DNA of 63,203 nucleotides, from assembly GCA_947259175.1 (NCBI GenBank), contig CAMYKW010000010.1, positions 1-63,203 on the forward strand, in the 5' to 3' direction. The stretch's first letter is position 1, and each line of letters begins with the position of its first letter. Below are positions 4,197 to 50,009 of the stretch, piece by piece. A program made the position numbers and the translations under genes. The stretch comes from an uncultured Gammaproteobacteria bacterium (GTDB taxonomy: Bacteria; Pseudomonadota; Gammaproteobacteria; Arenicellales; JAANXG01). The notes beneath the pieces were generated by a model. The model was not told where the DNA came from. It did not search any database and worked only from the letters and a program-made list of their open reading frames with translations.

Positions 4197-5246
4197 TTAC
4201 CGCTTGAGCAGTTTTACGGCGCGGGAAAATAACGTAGCAGGCCGACGCCTGGACATGCGCGGCGGCTGCGGCCCTGATGACAAATTCAAATTGGTCACGT
4301 GAACACTGACGCGCGACGGCTGACCCGGGTTATCCCACCGCGTGTTCGCGGAATACACAATATCCGGGAATTGGGATAAGGCGGTTGCTTGGTAGACGCC
4401 GGTGCCGCGAAGGTTAGTACCCCTGAGGTCGGTGGCCGGATATTTCGAACCGCGCATCTTTACCGACCACATATCAGCTTCCGTCAGGTTGGCGCCGGTC
4501 AAGTCGGCAAATCCCAGATCAGCGCGCGACAAATTGGCGCCGCTCAGATCTGCTCCGCCTAAATTGACGCGGGTGAGGTCGGCTCCGGCAAGGTTGACTT
4601 CTTCCAGGGTCGCATGATTCAAGCTTGCCTGCTGCAGTTCGACGCCGGACAGGTTGGTTTTCAGCAGGTAGGCGTTATTCAACCGAGCCTCGGAAAGGTC
4701 CGCCCCATCCAGCTGGGCGCCGTCCAGCTTGGCGCCACCGAGTTGCGTTCCAATCAGCTTCGCGGCAAAAAGATTGGCCCCGGACAAACTTGCCGACACC
4801 AGATTCGACTGTGACAAATTCACTCCGGCCAAATTTGCGCCGCGCAAATCCGCCTCGTACAAGTTCGCGGATAGCAGGTTTGCTCCGGACATCGAGGCTT
4901 TGCGTAAACACGCCCCGGACAGAGTTGTACTGATCAGAGTTGCGCCGGCGAGATTGGCGCCAGTGAGATCGGCCGACGTCAAATCAGCGTTTGAAAGATC
5001 CGCTCCGAACAGTCGCGCACCGCATAGTTTCGCCTGATAAAGGTCGGCACCCGAAAGATCCGCTCCAGACAGATCAGCTTCGGTCAAATCCGTGCGTGAT
5101 AGATCAGCACCGCGAAAATTCACACCGCACAATCGGACACCGGAGAGATTGACTCCGGAAAAAGTGCCATGTGCCAGAGATCTGCCCGTGAGGCTGCTTC
5201 CCGGGACTGACACAGCGTCCAACAAATTTGCGACGATTACGCTCAC
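4197..5246 (-). CDS. Pentapeptide-repeat protein
   Basis: 349 residues from a GTG at 5246; no strong ribosome binding site is visible, so the exact start is uncertain. From about residue 22 to 278 it is an almost unbroken run of A(D/N)LXX pentapeptides (for example ADLSGADLSGADLYQAKLCG), roughly 50 copies, which should fold into a right-handed quadrilateral beta-helix. The last 70 residues leave the repeat, are rich in Pro, Ser and Arg, and end in a basic RAVKLLKR tail. No signal peptide or membrane helix is seen, so it is probably cytoplasmic. Family members range from gyrase-protecting DNA mimics to scaffolds; nothing here selects one role. Confidence 0.88.
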   Translation of the reverse strand: MSVIVANLLDAVSVPGSSLTGRSLAHGTFSGVNLSGVRLCGVNFRGADLSRTDLTEADLSGADLSGADLYQAKLCGARLFGADLSNADLTSADLTGANLAGATLISTTLSGACLRKASMSGANLLSANLYEADLRGANLAGVNLSQSNLVSASLSGANLFAAKLIGTQLGGAKLDGAQLDGADLSEARLNNAYLLKTNLSGVELQQASLNHATLEEVNLAGADLTRVNLGGADLSGANLSRADLGFADLTGANLTEADMWSVKMRGSKYPATDLRGTNLRGTGVYQATALSQFPDIVYSANTRWDNPGQPSRVSVHVTNLNLSSGPQPPRMSRRRPATLFSRAVKLLKR

Positions 5247-44186: not shown

Positions 44187-44815
44187 ACGCGCAACACCGC
44201 AAAAACATTTTCCAACGGCTTCGCGCTCAAAATCCGGCGCCGACAACCGAACTCAAGTATCGCAGCGCCTTCGAGCTCATGGTTGCGGTGATCCTCTCGG
44301 CGCAAGCCACTGACGTCAGTGTTAATAAAGCCACGCGTGAATTATTCAAGGCCGCGAACACGCCGGAACAAATCGCCCGATTGGGGGTCCGTGGATTAAA
44401 GCCGTTCATAAAATCCATTGGTTTGTACAACAACAAGGCGAAACACATTGTCGCCGCGGCGCGCATGCTGATCGACCGCCATGACGGGCGTGTGCCCGAC
44501 ACACGACAAGCGTTGGAGGCGCTTCCCGGGGTGGGTCGCAAGACCGCCAATGTGATCCTCAATACCGCGTTCGAGCAGGCGACCATCGCCGTCGACACGC
44601 ATATCTTCAGAGTCGCGAATCGCACCGGCCTGGCCGCCGGGAAAACACCGTTGGCGGTGGAAAAACGCCTTTTGCAAGTGGTCCCGGACGAGTACCAACG
44701 GCACGCCCACCATTGGCTAATTCTGCACGGGCGTTATACTTGTACGGCGCGCAAGCCGCGCTGCCGCGATTGCGTCATCAACGATCTGTGCGAATATCGG
44801 GAGAAAGCCGCATAA
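44183..44815 (+). CDS. nth: Endonuclease III (DNA glycosylase/AP lyase)
   Basis: 210 residues from GTG 44183, which overlaps the rsxB stop by four bases. It removes oxidised pyrimidines. The HhH motif [20 protein letters not shown] with the catalytic Lys, the Asp in [16 protein letters not shown], and the 4Fe-4S cluster Cys in [20 protein letters not shown] are all visible. The coupling to the upstream RsxB-like ferredoxin is conserved in many proteobacteria. Confidence 0.96.
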
Positions 44816-45921
44816 TGAGCTGTTCAAATGTAGCGACAGGCATCAGCTACGGTACGCCGGCCCGTTCCCGGCACGCCGAACACGCGGTATCCCAGGCCCT
44901 GGAAAAGGCCGGATTGACCACGGCCAACAGCGTGCTTCTGTTCCTGACATCGGATTTCGCCCACGACCCCAAACCGGCGCTCACCGCAGCGGCGCGAACC
45001 GCCGGTTGCACACAGGTGTTCGGCTGTACCGGAACCGGCTTGCTCACCGATCAGGAGTGGCTGCTGGACAGTTCCGGGGCGGTGGCGATGGTACTCGGTG
45101 GTGACGTGTCGTTGTCGCCGGTGCTGGAAGATTCCGGCGATTCACTGGTGCTGAGCCTGAGCACCCCCGGGGGCCTTTCCACCCACTGGCTGGATGCCCC
45201 GGTGGGCCGCATCGGCGCACTGTCCACGGACGAATTCGGTCACGGCCCATTTTCGGTATGGAACAGCGCCCGGGTGGTGCGCGACGGTCATACCCACGCC
45301 GTAATCCACGGAGTCCGCCATGCAGTTACCGTGGGACAAGGCGTACGCGCGCTGACCGCGCCATTGGAAGTGGCGGAAGTGCAGGGATTCGACATCCGGC
45401 GCCTGGGCAACTATCCGGCTTTGAATGTGCTGGTAAACTCGCTGCCGGCGTCGGTGCGTCGCATGGAGCGCATCCCGCTGCATATGCTGATGTGCGGCGT
45501 CACCTTCGGGGATCCGCACACCGCGATCCGGGAAGGCCGATTTCGCCTGGATCACATCGTATCGGCCAATCCCCAGGACAGTTCCATTACTCTGTCCCAT
45601 CCGTTGACCCAGGGGGAGCGCCTGTTTTGGGCTATACGCGACAAACTCACCGCGGAACGGGGCATGACCATGGCGATAGAACGCGGTACAGAAGAATTGG
45701 GCGTGCCCCCTGAGTTCGCGCTGATGTTTCCCTGCATCAGCCGCGGGCCCTCGTTTTTCGGTAGCGGGGATAGAGACATTGAACTGTTGAAAGAAAAGCA
45801 TCCCGAATTACCGTTCATCGGCTTCTACGGCAACGGGGAAATCGCACCCCTTTCCGGGGGCAGCCACCTTTATCAGTACTCCACGGTCCTGGGTTTATTC
45901 GCCTGCGGCGAAATCACTTAA
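44815..45921 (+). CDS. FIST-domain sensory protein
   Basis: 368 residues from ATG 44815, whose A is the last base of the nth TAA stop; a longer frame to 44713 lies inside nth. It begins with a FIST N domain (SVLLFLTSDFAHDPKPALTA, GCTQVFGCTGTGLLTDQEWL) and ends in a FIST C domain (ALMFPCISRGPSFFGSGDRD, LPFIGFYGNGEIAPLSGGSH). FIST proteins bind small ligands, perhaps amino acids, in signalling, and often sit with histidine kinases, chemoreceptors or GGDEF proteins; none is next to it here. It lies 301 bases upstream of the bufferin operon. Confidence 0.88.
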   Translation: MSCSNVATGISYGTPARSRHAEHAVSQALEKAGLTTANSVLLFLTSDFAHDPKPALTAAARTAGCTQVFGCTGTGLLTDQEWLLDSSGAVAMVLGGDVSLSPVLEDSGDSLVLSLSTPGGLSTHWLDAPVGRIGALSTDEFGHGPFSVWNSARVVRDGHTHAVIHGVRHAVTVGQGVRALTAPLEVAEVQGFDIRRLGNYPALNVLVNSLPASVRRMERIPLHMLMCGVTFGDPHTAIREGRFRLDHIVSANPQDSSITLSHPLTQGERLFWAIRDKLTAERGMTMAIERGTEELGVPPEFALMFPCISRGPSFFGSGDRDIELLKEKHPELPFIGFYGNGEIAPLSGGSHLYQYSTVLGLFACGEIT

Positions 45922-46222
45922 CCCGCTTTTCTCACCGGGATCCCGGACGCTGGCGCAGGACTGGTTCGGCTTACCAAGATATAGTCGCTGGGCACCTGGC
46001 AAGAAGTGCGGATTAAGCCTCTCGTTTTTCACCCATCCGCGCACTGTCCCCACCGTTCCTCCGAGGGCGGGAAAGATTTGAGCCCAACGCCCGGTCTTCG
46101 CCCGTAACGGACAAGAAACTTTTGACTCGGTAGCGAGTCAGATTGGCCAAGACGGATATTTCAGATTCGTAATGGCGGGTCTTGACCGTCAAAAGACCTT
46201 TAACCAACAGGAGTAGAAGTTC
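45922..46222 (+). promoter_or_regulatory. Leader region of the bufferin operon with dyads
   Basis: 301 bases between the FIST gene and bufA. A perfect dyad TGACTCG-GTAG-CGAGTCA lies at 46123-46140. Another, GGTCTT-(9)-AAGACC, spans 46178-46198 and contains the palindrome TTGACCGTCAA; it lies 24 bases before bufA. CCGGGATCCCGG sits at 45935-45946 after the FIST stop. No clear -10/-35 pair of the sigma-70 type was found; GTAACG at 46104 resembles an ECF -35 box but a matching -10 was not seen. The ribosome site is AGGAG nine bases before the ATG. Confidence 0.5.
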
Positions 46223-46483
46223 ATGACTAACACCAAAACCCTCGTCAGCACCGCTGTTTCCAGCTTGATGCTATTGGGCATCGCCGGCACCACCGTGCCC
46301 GCCAACGCCGCAGACATGGAGAAATGTTACGGCGTGGTAAAGGCTGGAAAGAACGATTGCCAAACCGCGAATTCGTCGTGCGCCGGAACCTCGACCAAAG
46401 ACGGCCAGAAAGATGCGTGGCTGTTTGTACCCAAAGGCACCTGCGAAAAGCTGGTCGGCGGCAACACCAAGGCCGGTGCCTGA
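46223..46483 (+). CDS. bufA: Bufferin precursor peptide (DUF2282, BufA1-like)
   Basis: 86 residues with an AGGAG site nine bases before the ATG. Residues 1-30 are a signal peptide ending in VPANAAD. The mature part has four Cys at 35, 46, 53 and 74, within [22 protein letters not shown] and [12 protein letters not shown], the DUF2282 pattern. In the family the Cys are converted by the MNIO enzyme to thiooxazole-type heterocycles and the peptide binds copper in the periplasm or outside the cell. bufB and bufC follow at once. Recognition is by motif only; the modification state is inferred. Confidence 0.9.
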
Positions 46484-46489
46484 ACAGAC

Positions 46490-47359
46490 GTGACCGCGCG
46501 ATGTGAACAGTTTGCAGTGCGATCGATTCCGGCGCGAGCCGGAATCGGTCTGCGCAGCGAGCATTACCAGGCGGTGATCGCAAACCGGCCGCAAGTGGGT
46601 TTCTTCGAAGTTCATAGCGAGAACTACTTCGGATCGGGCGGCGTCCCCCATCGCTATCTGGAAACGATACGCGCCGACTATCCGCTGAGTTTTCATGGGG
46701 TGGGCATGTCGCTGGGTTCGGTGGATCCGTTGAGCACGGCGCACACGCGGCGACTTAAACAGCTGGTGGACTATTACCAACCGGATCTGATCTCGGAACA
46801 TCTGTCATGGAGTTCGGTCGGCGGCACGTTCTTCAATGACTTGCTGCCGTTGCCCTATACACCGGAGGCGTTGCACCATGTCGTCGACCGGGTGCGTCAA
46901 ATCCAAGATCGGCTGCAGCGCGAAATACTGGTTGAAAACGTGTCCAGTTATCTCCAGTACACGCACTCGACGATTCCCGAGTGGGAGTTCGTAAATGAAG
47001 TCGCGCTTCAATCCGGTTGCGGCATACTGCTGGACGTGAACAACATCTTTGTCAACGCCACCAACCACAATTTTGACGCGCAAACGTACCTGGCCGGCGT
47101 CTCCCCGCAGCTGGTGAAGGAGATACATCTGGCCGGACACACCGTCAATGAGTTCGAGGACGGCAGTATATTGATCGACACCCATGATCAATTGGTGTGC
47201 GACGAGGTTTGGAGCCTGTACCGCGGCGCCGTGAGCCGATTCGGCCCCAAACCGACCTTAATCGAGTGGGACACCGACTTACCGGAATTGACGGTGTTGC
47301 TCGAGGAGGCGAATAAGGCGCAAGCCGTCCTGGAGGCCGCCCATGACCGGGTTGCGTGA
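46490..47359 (+). CDS. bufB: MNIO/DUF692 RiPP-modifying oxidase (BufB)
   Basis: 289 residues from GTG 46490, six bases after bufA; no own ribosome site is seen, so translation is likely coupled. A TIM-barrel multinuclear non-heme iron oxidase: FFEVHSENYFGSGG near residues 38-51, PLSFHGVGMSLGS at 65-77, LISEHLSWSSVGGT at 100-113, LLDVNNIFVNATNH and KEIHLAGHT, and IEWDTDLPELTVLL hold the His, Glu and Asp ligands. In this family it oxidises precursor Cys residues. It works with the DUF2063 partner encoded next. Confidence 0.93.
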   Translation: MTARCEQFAVRSIPARAGIGLRSEHYQAVIANRPQVGFFEVHSENYFGSGGVPHRYLETIRADYPLSFHGVGMSLGSVDPLSTAHTRRLKQLVDYYQPDLISEHLSWSSVGGTFFNDLLPLPYTPEALHHVVDRVRQIQDRLQREILVENVSSYLQYTHSTIPEWEFVNEVALQSGCGILLDVNNIFVNATNHNFDAQTYLAGVSPQLVKEIHLAGHTVNEFEDGSILIDTHDQLVCDEVWSLYRGAVSRFGPKPTLIEWDTDLPELTVLLEEANKAQAVLEAAHDRVA

Positions 47360-48116
47360 GTTGCAACAAGCCTTCGGGGAGTCGTTGCGTTCGGAACAGG
47401 CGATGCAGCTTGCGCCGTGGATATGCGCCGACGGAATTCCGGGAATGCGGCGCGTACAGATTTATCGCAACAACCACGCTACCAGCTTAACAGAGGCGCT
47501 GCGCGCGGCCTACCCGGTGGTGGAAAAGCTGGTGAGTGAAGGATTCTTCCGCTTCGCCGCGCATCGCTATACACGGAAATTCCCCTCCACCGAGGGTAAC
47601 CTGCATGGATTCGGGCGCGACTTCGCCCGCTTTCTCGGTCAATTCCCGCCCGCGAAGGACCACCGGTATCTACCCGACGTCGCGCGGCTGGAGTGGGCGC
47701 GGCACGAGGTCTATCACGCGGGCGGTCACGCGCCGATGGCGCCGCAATCCCTCGCCGCCGTCGATCCCGCGGCCTACGAGTCGCTGCGCTTTACCATCCA
47801 TCCGGCGCGGCGCCTGCTGCGATCACCCTATCCGGTGGTGCGCATCTGGGAAGTTAATCAGCCGGACTGGAAAGCGGGCCAAACAGTGGATTTATCGGCG
47901 TCCGGCGACCGCGTGCTGGTCCTGCGGACCCAAGGTCAGATCGAGTTTCACCGGCTTGCCCCCGCCGAGTACCGGTTTCTCGACACGCTCAGCGCGGGAT
48001 GCACCCTGGGCCGGGCAGCGGAAGCGGCGCTGGCGCGTGAACCGGATTTCGACCTGAACCGATCTCTGGTTAAACATGTGCAGAACCACACGCTGGTCGG
48101 TTTCGCCCTGGCGTAG
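47343..48116 (+). CDS. bufC: DUF2063 RiPP partner protein (BufC)
   Basis: 257 residues, ATG 47343, overlapping bufB by 17 bases. The N-terminal domain has the family pattern QIYRNNHATSLTEALRAAYP, VVEKLVSEGFFRFAAHRYTR and DVARLEWARHEVYHAG. The C-terminal part (residues about 165-255) is a winged, PqqD-like region (VDLSASGDRVLVLRTQGQIE). In known systems it presents the precursor to the MNIO enzyme. It is the third gene of the operon. Confidence 0.9.
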   Translation: MTGLRELQQAFGESLRSEQAMQLAPWICADGIPGMRRVQIYRNNHATSLTEALRAAYPVVEKLVSEGFFRFAAHRYTRKFPSTEGNLHGFGRDFARFLGQFPPAKDHRYLPDVARLEWARHEVYHAGGHAPMAPQSLAAVDPAAYESLRFTIHPARRLLRSPYPVVRIWEVNQPDWKAGQTVDLSASGDRVLVLRTQGQIEFHRLAPAEYRFLDTLSAGCTLGRAAEAALAREPDFDLNRSLVKHVQNHTLVGFALA

Positions 48117-48161
48117 TCACTGCGTATATTTCACGCCACACCAGAAACGGAGAACCCGACC

Positions 48162-48650
48162 ATGTCTATCGCCCCTGCAGTCGCCAACCTCGCCAAGCCC
48201 ATAATCCGCGGACTCGAATACTTGAGCCCCTTGGGCCTGTTGGGCATTCGCTTGTGGGTGGCGAACGTGTTCTGGAAAGCGGGCCTGACAAAGATCGCGA
48301 TAGGAGAGGACTTCCCATTCATCGGCCTGGGCCCGAGCACCTTGATGCTTTTCCAGTATGAGTACAGCGTGCCGTTGATCGATTATAAAACCGCCGCGTA
48401 CCTGGGAACCGCTACCGAGCTGATGTTTCCGGTATTCCTGGCGATCGGCCTGGGCGGCCGCTTTGCCGCCATAGTCTTGTTTGTCTTCAACATCGTAGCG
48501 GTCATATCCTATCCCGGTCTCAACGAGGCGGGAGTGCAACAGCATCAACTCTGGGGGTTGATGCTGCTATTATTGGTTTTCTACGGTCCGGGAAAGATCT
48601 CCGTAGATCATTTTATTCGCAAAAAATACATGGACAGCCCCGGTTATTGA
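48162..48650 (+). CDS. DoxX family membrane protein of the bufferin operon
   Basis: 162 residues, ATG 48162 with a GGAGA about nine bases upstream. Four hydrophobic helices: LLGIRLWVANVFWKAGLTKI, TATELMFPVFLAIGLGGRF, IVLFVFNIVAVISYPGLN, LWGLMLLLLVFYGPGK. DoxX-type proteins are quinone-linked or thiol-redox membrane proteins and are frequent in bufferin operons; the role there is not settled. The reading frame ends 30 bases before a strong hairpin, so it is the last gene of the operon. Confidence 0.85.
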   Translation: MSIAPAVANLAKPIIRGLEYLSPLGLLGIRLWVANVFWKAGLTKIAIGEDFPFIGLGPSTLMLFQYEYSVPLIDYKTAAYLGTATELMFPVFLAIGLGGRFAAIVLFVFNIVAVISYPGLNEAGVQQHQLWGLMLLLLVFYGPGKISVDHFIRKKYMDSPGY

Positions 48651-48680
48651 TGTATCTCCGAAGCTGCACCTGGTTGCAAT

Positions 48681-48701
48681 GGGAGGGTGGTTCACCCTCC
48701 C
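48681..48701 (+). terminator. Hairpin ending the bufferin operon
   Basis: GGGAGGGTG-GTT-CACCCTCCC, a perfect nine-base-pair stem, 30 bases after the DoxX stop. The downstream bases GTGTTCATATTTGAC are only moderately T-rich, so termination may be partial and the radical SAM gene may get read-through. Confidence 0.6.
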
Positions 48702-48718
48702 GTGTTCATATTTGACAC

Positions 48719-49726
48719 ATGAAAATCAACTCGATTAACAAACCGGTTCCGAATTACGGCCCCACGTTCGACGACGCCTTGCGGGGCACAGGTCTGGGAA
48801 CACTCTCCCGCGCGCCACTGCGGGAACTGCAGGTCAACCTGGGCAGGTTGTGCAACCAGGCGTGCTCCCATTGCCATGTCGATGCCGGGCCGAAGCGCAC
48901 CGAAATCATGCAGTGGGAGACCATGAGTCGCATCCTGTCATGGTATGCCGCCGCGGGTTTACGCCGCGCGGACATCACCGGCGGCGCCCCGGAATTGAAT
49001 CCCAACTTTCGCAAGTTCGTAGACGCCCTCCTGGCTCTGGGAGCCCAGGTCAACTCGCGCTGCAATCTCACCGTGTTAATGGAACCCGGTCAGGAAGATC
49101 TGGCCGCCTGGTACGCCGAGCGGCGCGTGCATATGGTTTGCTCTCTGCCGTGTTACTCGAAACAAAACGTGGACGAGCAACGCGGCGACGGCGTGTTCAA
49201 CAAGAGCATCGAGGCGCTGCGCCTGCTCAATCGGCACGGCTATGGCCGTGACGAAGATCTGCATCTGGACCTGGTCTACAACCCGGGGGGCGCGGTTCTG
49301 CCCCCCGCCCAGGACCAACTCGAAAGCGACTACAAGACCCGTCTGTACGACGGCTTCGGCATTCGATTCAACCGCTTACTCACTCTCACCAACCTTCCGA
49401 TAAACCGTTTTGCGCATTATCTGCGGCGTACCGGCCAGACGCGCAGCTATCAGCAATTGCTGGTGGAAAATTTCAATCGGGACAGTGTTCCCAATCTGAT
49501 GTGCCGCCATGTGCTAAGCGTCGACTGGCTGGGGCGGGTTTATGACTGCGACTTCAATCAGATGCTGGCGCTGCCCCTGGGCGATCACGGTCCACGCCAA
49601 TTGTGGGACATCGATCCCCATACGCTGGAGGAGACCCCGATCGCCGTGGACCGGCACTGTTTCGGGTGCACCGCCGGCGCCGGTAGCAGTTGCGGCGGCG
49701 CTCTGGTTGCGAACCACACGGCTTAA
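48719..49726 (+). CDS. Radical SAM protein, ArsS-like (arsenosugar biosynthesis type)
   Basis: 335 residues, ATG 48719. The radical SAM cluster motif is in LGRLCNQACSHCHVDAGPKR (CxxxCxxC) near residue 44, followed by TGGAPELNPNFRK, and the C-terminus has the Cys-rich CFGCTAGAGSSCGG characteristic of the group that includes ArsS and selenocysteine-containing relatives. Here Cys replaces Sec throughout and no in-frame TGA is used. ArsS makes oxo-arsenosugars from dimethylarsenic; no arsM or ars gene is in the window. It lies 18 bases after a hairpin that closes the bufferin operon. Confidence 0.85.
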   Translation: MKINSINKPVPNYGPTFDDALRGTGLGTLSRAPLRELQVNLGRLCNQACSHCHVDAGPKRTEIMQWETMSRILSWYAAAGLRRADITGGAPELNPNFRKFVDALLALGAQVNSRCNLTVLMEPGQEDLAAWYAERRVHMVCSLPCYSKQNVDEQRGDGVFNKSIEALRLLNRHGYGRDEDLHLDLVYNPGGAVLPPAQDQLESDYKTRLYDGFGIRFNRLLTLTNLPINRFAHYLRRTGQTRSYQQLLVENFNRDSVPNLMCRHVLSVDWLGRVYDCDFNQMLALPLGDHGPRQLWDIDPHTLEETPIAVDRHCFGCTAGAGSSCGGALVANHTA

Positions 49727-49738
49727 ACCCATACCCGG

Positions 49739-49788
49739 CGGCGCGGGACCAACGACCGCAAAGGACCGTTTAGCGGTCTGGCCCGCCG
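49739..49788 (+). repeat. Nested inverted-repeat element after the radical SAM gene
   Basis: Outer arms CGGC..GGG (39-47) pair with CCCGCCG (82-88), and inner arms GACCGC (49754-49759) pair with GCGGTC (49773-49778), 13 bases after the stop. No T-run follows, so it is not a typical intrinsic terminator; it may be a structured 3' end. Confidence 0.4.
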
Positions 49789-49834
49789 AATAGAAGTCTC
49801 TGGAACGTTACCGCACGCGTGCCGGAATCGTCAT

Positions 49835-49984
49835 ATGAGATTCGACCACCCACAGTGGGAGATGTATTCGACTTCAAAGCACGAGGTACGCGCGTTGTTG
49901 AAACAAGTCGGCGTAACGTTGTTCGAGATGCACCTCAAGCATCGCATGCGCACATTCCAGGGCGCCTTTCACGCCAGGCACTGA
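49835..49984 (+). CDS. Possible small protein, 49 residues
   Basis: An open frame with ATG 49835 and TGA 49982-49984, in the 280-base space between the radical SAM gene and the HDOD gene. The product is His-rich and basic (KHEVRALLKQVGVTLFEMHL, HRMRTFQGAFHARH), with no Cys, signal peptide or known motif. No ribosome site is obvious. It may be chance; it is listed because nothing else fills this space. Confidence 0.25.
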   Translation: MRFDHPQWEMYSTSKHEVRALLKQVGVTLFEMHLKHRMRTFQGAFHARH

Positions 49985-50009
49985 GCTGAGTCATCCGTAT
50001 CCGTTAACG

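Follow-up and report, generated by a model that had tools for sequence, protein, structure and literature searches.

A Buf1-type bufferin operon, probably copper-handling and likely co-transcribed with arsS, in an uncultured gammaproteobacterium

This study reports that the genes at 46223-48650 of a 63,203-nucleotide (nt) stretch of DNA from an uncultured gammaproteobacterium (contig CAMYKW010000010.1; hereafter the window) can be read with considerable confidence as a Buf1-type bufferin operon, which probably handles copper and is likely co-transcribed with the downstream gene arsS. Copper binding by this copy of the precursor is putative and taken from the family, as are the thiooxazole chemistry and the export proposed below, while gene identities, gene order, conservation and the promoter motif are established here. 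The core, bufA-bufB-bufC-doxX in the published order, is ordinary and represents a known kind of operon, bufferin clusters being known by the thousands (PMC12452194). A first-pass annotation had already read the locus as a bufferin-type operon with these genes in this order, and the open reading frame (ORF) positions and profile matches support it. The features are as follows.

46115-46142, forward strand: promoter candidate resembling those of extracytoplasmic function (ECF) sigma factors, GAAACTT-N15-GTC, its motif conserved upstream of bufA
46223-46483, forward strand: bufA1, bufferin precursor of 86 amino acids (aa) with Cys 35, 46, 53 and 74 and a signal-peptide-like N terminus (PF10048, E = 1.1e-24)
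46490-47359, forward strand: bufB1, MNIO bufferin maturase, GTG start, 289 aa (PF05114, E = 5.5e-109; NF050167)
47343-48116, forward strand: bufC1, DUF2063 partner protein of the MNIO, 257 aa (PF09836, E = 1.2e-20)
48162-48650, forward strand: doxX, DoxX-family membrane protein, 162 aa (PF07681, E = 1.1e-12)
48679-48703, forward strand: hairpin of 11 pairs between doxX and arsS, a possible terminator or attenuator
48719-49726, forward strand: arsS, radical S-adenosylmethionine (SAM) protein of the arsenosugar family, probable fifth gene (TIGR04167)

Results

Four core genes of a Buf1-type cluster

The families that the first-pass annotation had named for the four core proteins, DUF2282, DUF692, DUF2063 and DoxX, were all recovered above the Pfam curated cut-offs, which were used throughout for Pfam profiles, with the NCBIfam model cut-offs for NF and TIGR families. 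BufA scored 86.5 bits against PF10048 (DUF2282; cut-off 22.4) and was the only match to this family in its own genome; it is the 86-residue, four-Cys peptide originally described, and all four Cys lie among the 12 invariant columns in an alignment of 17 precursors hand-chosen from the available loci. A hydropathy scan placed a hydrophobic stretch at residues 7-25, and a putative ANA-AD cleavage site was recognized by eye.

BufB reached 395 bits against the NCBIfam model MNIO_BufB (NF050167, 'MNIO family bufferin maturase'; cut-off 310) and aligned with the MNIO-family structure 3BWW at 1.3e-42; its alignments with TglH (8hci) and MbnB were weaker. The motif segments expected of an MNIO were found, as the blocks FHG/IHG, SEHLS/SDHLS, VEN, LDVNN, IH-AGH, DTH and the E of IEWD/LERD are common to BufB and 3BWW; we take them to be the site of the iron ligands. 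The bufC gene overlaps the 3′ part of bufB by 17 nt, as annotated, and its product scored 74 bits against PF09836 (cut-off 27.2). Neither BufA nor BufC yielded a useful match among PDB sequences; an AlphaFold2 model of BufC built from 23 sequences (predicted local distance difference test, 89.2) had three PDB matches at E <= 0.001, namely 8hci_A (1.4e-6) and 8hi7_A, both TglHI, and NGO1945 (3dee; 2.7e-5). TM-scores on the query were modest, ranging over 0.53-0.61 (0.61 for 8hci_A and 0.55 for 3dee). The chain matched in 8hci_A and 8hi7_A was taken as TglI, the non-MNIO chain of TglHI, so that the model resembles TglI and NGO1945, proteins of the type known as MNIO partners. For a C-terminal domain of the RiPP recognition element (RRE) type in BufC, the model gave only weak matches to the leader-binding protein TbiB1 (E 2-3, probability 0.54-0.66). 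The annotated 'four-helix DoxX' protein stands as a DoxX-family member by PF07681, but four helices were not seen in a simple hydropathy scan, which marked only the stretches 86-122 and 130-148; against the HvfX family NF050144 the protein scored 51 bits, under the cut-off of 80.

The five genes from bufA to arsS gave ratios of nonsynonymous to synonymous substitution (dN/dS) of 0.02-0.22 against three same-genus relatives, with bufA lowest at 0.02-0.04; these NG86 values are rough, dS being 0.9-1.5. Chance ORFs are ruled out by the profile matches together with dN/dS, and a phage origin was rejected on the finding that BufA and BufB have no PHROGs match at 0.001. Rfam at the gathering threshold recognized no known RNA element in 45900-50000.

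Buf1 clusters are defined by a DUF2282 precursor and described with the order bufABC and with doxX as a core gene (PMC12452194), and what was found here is a DUF2282 precursor with four conserved Cys, the order bufABC with doxX, a bufferin-type MNIO and a DUF2063 partner. Membership in Buf2 was rejected, as BufA scored 28.5 bits against NF050166 (BufA2; cut-off 60) and has four Cys, not six or twelve. MNIO modification of a precursor lowers its mass by 4 Da per modified Cys. Such modification of the precursor Cys, as first proposed, agrees with the family assignment, but in published Buf1 the modification is confined to the two central Cys, the first and last forming a disulphide (PMC12452194, figure legend). 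Therefore, a shift of about -8 Da with one disulphide would be expected, not four modified Cys.

A conserved promoter candidate upstream of bufA

About 100 nt upstream of bufA, the alignment of upstream regions contains the block AGAAACTTTT, then GTC. A GAAAC box and a GTC box 17 nt apart have the shape of ECF-sigma promoters. With identical spacing and within 200 nt of bufA, GAAACTT-N15-GTC occurs in 10 of 21 arsS-linked loci (the window's included) from three families, whereas shuffled sequences have it in a mean of 0.003 loci; the 21 loci are the 22 arsS-linked genomes described below minus G005, many of them close relatives and not independent. The motif is also present in both genomes of another order, G169 and G285, and is missing from a second DUF2282 locus of G003 (L084), which lies beside a broken bufB. 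The fuller pattern GAAACTT-N15-GTCNSA has one match in its own genome, at 46115-46142, and none in the reversed control; since about one chance match per genome is expected by our estimate, this single match alone says little. A sigma-70 promoter was rejected, as no sigma-70-like promoter was found in 45900-50000 (shuffle mean 1.8).

Linkage of buf and arsS across genomes

ArsS scored 429 bits against TIGR04167 (cut-off 300), the only match above the cut-off in its own genome, and its CxxxCxxC cluster motif (Cys 45, 49 and 52) is conserved in 41 of 41 aligned rows. Among 60 relatives searched, the own genome included, 37 have a BufB match; arsS lies just downstream on the same contig in 22 of them and not in the other 15, with linkage and presence or absence read by eye from the match coordinates. 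The arrangement nth-FIST-bufA-bufB-bufC-doxX-arsS was found in G169 and G285. No arsS match was found in the examined flank of seven loci with bufABC and doxX from Competibacter, Contendobacter or Competibacteraceae (L039, L041, L042, L044, L046, L047 and L048), the BufB proteins of which are 62-65% identical, and this speaks against a general link. Conversely, five of ten unlinked arsS loci have the order rnfB-nth-arsS, with or without metG and FIST (L150, L152, L155, L156 and L157), metG and rnfB being names that we assume from the sequences and domains of these neighbors, and two genomes with such loci, G019 and G029, carry buf elsewhere. Therefore, the buf cassette occupies a slot that arsS also keeps alone.

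The presence or absence of ArsS agrees with that of the arsenosugar glycosyltransferase TIGR04283 in 56 of the 60 genomes (both present in 46 and neither in 10, with 4 discordant; p 4e-8) and with that of DUF2282 in 42 (p 0.0016), neither value being corrected for relatedness. In a class-level set of 274 genomes, 137 have ArsS and 77 DUF2282, and the overlap, recounted by script from the two match lists, is 38 against 38.5 expected, that is, at chance level. In four of these 38, both genes share a contig and lie no more than 10 kb apart: the window's genome, G169, G285 and G127; in the last of these arsS lies upstream, with other genes intervening. Among the matches listed, no paper was recognized that connects ArsS or arsenosugars to bufferins or DUF692/DUF2063; 'arsen' and 'ArsS' do not occur in the main text of PMC12452194, nor 'arsen' in PMC13097082, supplements apart in both cases.

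ArsS lineages

In a first tree of ArsS from 35 of the 47 genomes above the cut-off plus G127, G169 and G285, the buf-linked rows need six label changes (shuffled mean 12.9), of which well-supported branches force only two. A second tree of 41 rows resolved two clades with a support of 100 in the Shimodaira-Hasegawa-like approximate likelihood ratio test (SH-aLRT, the only support computed); L190 was dropped for having too few columns, and L188 was labeled a cluster row by its arsM-like gene alone. Clade 1 (20 rows) holds 11 buf-linked sequences and 9 others, nth-slot copies included, and of the 21 rows in clade 2, 18 come from arsM/glycosyltransferase clusters. At position 141 of the window's ArsS, an additional Cys is present in 19 of 20 rows of the buf-containing clade, where all 21 rows of the other have Ala; the remaining ten highly conserved Cys are common to both.

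A TIGR04283-type gene lies near arsS in 17 of the 20 sampled class-level loci, which were hand-picked from the 137 genomes. Beside arsS in the window no arsM, TIGR04283 or TIGR04282 gene was recognized; the TIGR04283 gene of this genome is elsewhere (C2:114221-114907). Arsenite methyltransferase exceeds its curated cut-off in 4 of the 60 genomes and has a match at E <= 1e-40 in 17, including one in the own genome below the curated cut-off; the arsM-like protein of the canonical L148 cluster itself reaches only 169 bits against 263, so these counts do not decide the role of ArsS. In G141 (L192:3133-6950), nth-FIST-doxX-arsS, with ArsS of the buf-containing clade, stands without a buf match, and TIGR04283 and TIGR04282 homologs lie tail to tail with arsS; these convergent glycosyltransferase genes speak for an arsenosugar role of the buf-containing clade too. 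The doxX gene there may have been kept beside arsS when buf was lost, or may belong with arsS.

Other MNIO loci and neighboring genes

The window's genome also has a Buf2 cluster (L169:3658-5630; G000:C87), in which an MNIO and a DUF2063-type partner come after an 83-aa precursor (88.5 bits against the BufA2 cut-off of 60); the genome thus has both Buf1 and Buf2 systems. A third MNIO cluster (L170:2856-6500; G000:C75) contains an 82-aa Cys-rich precursor ORF (4754-5002), Buf2-like by eye, on the strand opposite to the MNIO and its partner, a departure from the usual bufABC order; genes for an ECF sigma factor and a DUF3379 protein adjoin it. A 475-aa ORF (L171:3804-5228; G000:C29) encodes a fourth MNIO-type protein, a divergent one, and the window's partner proteins have no match in the 10 kb around it.

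Elsewhere among the relatives, a single frame of 540-570 codons has matches to BufB as well as to BufC in L030, L033 and L034 (family f10), an apparent MNIO-DUF2063 fusion, and a tandem pair of bufA-type precursors precedes bufB in L019 and L144 (both G035), L030 and L034. In the window, a FIST-domain sensor-type protein is encoded at 44713-45921, upstream of bufA; several relatives, as well as G169 and G285, have it in this position, and in L155 it lies upstream of arsS without buf. Further neighbor families were also observed.

Discussion

The core genes have close published parallels. In the GIG systems, gigP and gigA, which we take to encode a DUF2282 peptide and an MNIO, accompany DUF2063 and DoxX proteins in one metal-induced operon. 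This was described for gigPABT of Cupriavidus metallidurans, one operon by reverse transcription PCR and induced by copper and gold (PMC10304878), and for the GIG operon of Legionella, which responds to gold and copper (PMC5413113). Unlike the window, the Cupriavidus gig genes are divergent from rpoQ-rsqA and their transcription stops at gigT, and arsS is unmentioned in the available text of either paper. The Caulobacter Buf1 cluster CC3254-3257 likewise has genes for the precursor, MNIO, DUF2063 and DoxX proteins, ordered as here, and is under the ECF sigma factor sigmaF, the motif of which, GTAACC-N16-CGAA, differs from the GAAACTT-N15-GTC found here (PMC3511200); unlike in Caulobacter, no sigma or NrsF domain was found in the 10 neighboring window proteins scanned, and arsS follows. 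The EGKCG captophorins (fontiphorin, oxazolin and gonophorin) also combine an MNIO with a DUF2063 partner installing 5-thiooxazole and have a copper link (PMC13097082), whereas BufA here lacks EGKCG repeats. The arsenosugar clusters of the type arsM-arsS-TIGR04283-TIGR04282 (L148) share the ArsS family and its ten conserved Cys with the window, but their ArsS belongs to the separate clade and has the companion genes that were not recognized here.

Several observations weigh against the reading of this locus as a copper-handling Buf1 operon that continues into arsS. The exact promoter motif is missing in 11 of the 21 loci, including G008, G010 and G012 of the same family; it was picked after inspection of the upstream alignment; and it could be paired with no sigma-factor gene, an exact GAAACTT-N15-GTC being absent from the region next to the ECF gene on C75. 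BufA, BufC and DoxX fall under the NCBIfam cut-offs for BufA2, HvfC and HvfX, which fits Buf1 rather than Buf2 or an oxazolin cluster. The doxX-arsS gap is 51-84 nt in 10 of 22 loci, and that of the window, 68 nt, contains a terminator-like hairpin. This strong hairpin, taken in the first-pass annotation to follow the operon, is real but may not end the unit, since arsS begins in its wake. It was scored as terminator-like by a scan, with the tail GTTCATATTT, and such sites in the stretch are no commoner than in shuffles (4 found, mean 4.3); the same gap in the same-genus relatives G003 and G001 has a hairpin of different sequence. The hairpins in these three gaps, and the nth neighborhood that arsS retains without buf, favor an operon that ends past doxX with arsS as a neighbor merely by conserved chromosomal position, an outcome we consider somewhat unlikely: the two genes overlap or lie within 23 nt of each other (-1 to 23 nt) in 12 of the 22 loci, and the lack of sigma-70-like promoters between 45900 and 50000 is weak evidence in the same direction. 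The gap table omits the linked genomes G005, G012 and G018, which have no single locus spanning both genes, adds G025, G169 and G285, and takes, among several open start codons, the one nearest the alignment. Gene spacing makes co-transcription with arsS likely.

Two further alternatives concern function. That the cluster answers another metal or stress (gold, chromium, cadmium, mercury or arsenic), with copper binding secondary, draws on the gold response of the GIG promoter (PMC5413113), on the heavy-metal sigma factor controlling the Caulobacter homologs (PMC3511200) and on arsS as a neighbor; it is improbable in view of published bufferins, which improve growth under copper stress (PMC12452194). 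Still less probable is that the ArsS-type enzyme works in the bufferin pathway, through an extra modification or by handling arsenic or other soft metals. The tight co-directional linkage in several families and a second order, the promoter motif common to both orders, the separation of buf-linked ArsS from the arsM/glycosyltransferase-cluster clade with Cys141 in 19 of 20 rows against none of 21, and the co-occurrence with DUF2282 among the 60 relatives all speak for it. Against it stand the chance-level co-occurrence in the class, the buf-free rnfB-nth-(FIST)-arsS loci, the failure of buf-linked ArsS to form one clade, the conserved Cys otherwise shared by both clades, and the closer tracking of TIGR04283 than of DUF2282 by ArsS. 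Co-occurrence, tree and residue comparison leave ArsS as a bufferin-specific enzyme mostly unsupported. We likewise see little prospect that the locus is a bufferin variant with its own radical SAM enzyme, a distinct Cys141 lineage of ArsS co-transcribed from a dedicated ECF-type promoter; if it were, the enzyme would add a second modification to the peptide, or tie the sequestration of copper to the conversion of arsenic within a single metal(loid)-stress operon, and such an operon would exist in at least two orders of one class (Gammaproteobacteria, judged from named relatives). Because half of the buf-free arsS loci keep the same slot, ArsS tracks TIGR04283, and DUF2282 co-occurs at chance level in the class, the link to arsS is probably one of position, in a slot conserved on the chromosome, and likely of co-transcription, rather than one of common chemistry.

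For the copper-handling Buf1 operon that we prefer, the following course can be proposed. A stress signal, most likely excess copper, would switch the operon on, probably via an alternative (ECF-type) sigma factor acting at the promoter candidate upstream of bufA. BufA1 would be synthesized with a Sec-type signal peptide, and BufB1 together with BufC1 would oxidize the central Cys 46 and 53 to 5-thiooxazoles in the cytoplasm; this modification has been proposed broadly for MNIO-PME1 clusters, with the role of DoxX left open (PMC13097082). The peptide would then be exported to the periplasm, where Cys 35 and Cys 74 may form the disulphide and the product could hold copper, while DoxX may serve as a membrane accessory, perhaps in redox, its role being unsettled. 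In this lineage the transcript most likely continues, in part through the hairpin, into arsS, and ArsS probably takes part in making organoarsenicals of the arsenosugar type, not the mature bufferin.

In conclusion, the core described here is a further Buf1 cluster; the lineage that carries it has uncultured Gammaproteobacteria as its nearest named relatives. The conserved ECF-like promoter candidate, unlike the Caulobacter motif, may point to a second way in which bufferins are regulated, and the co-directional arsS suggests that the sequestration of copper may be induced jointly with organoarsenical chemistry.

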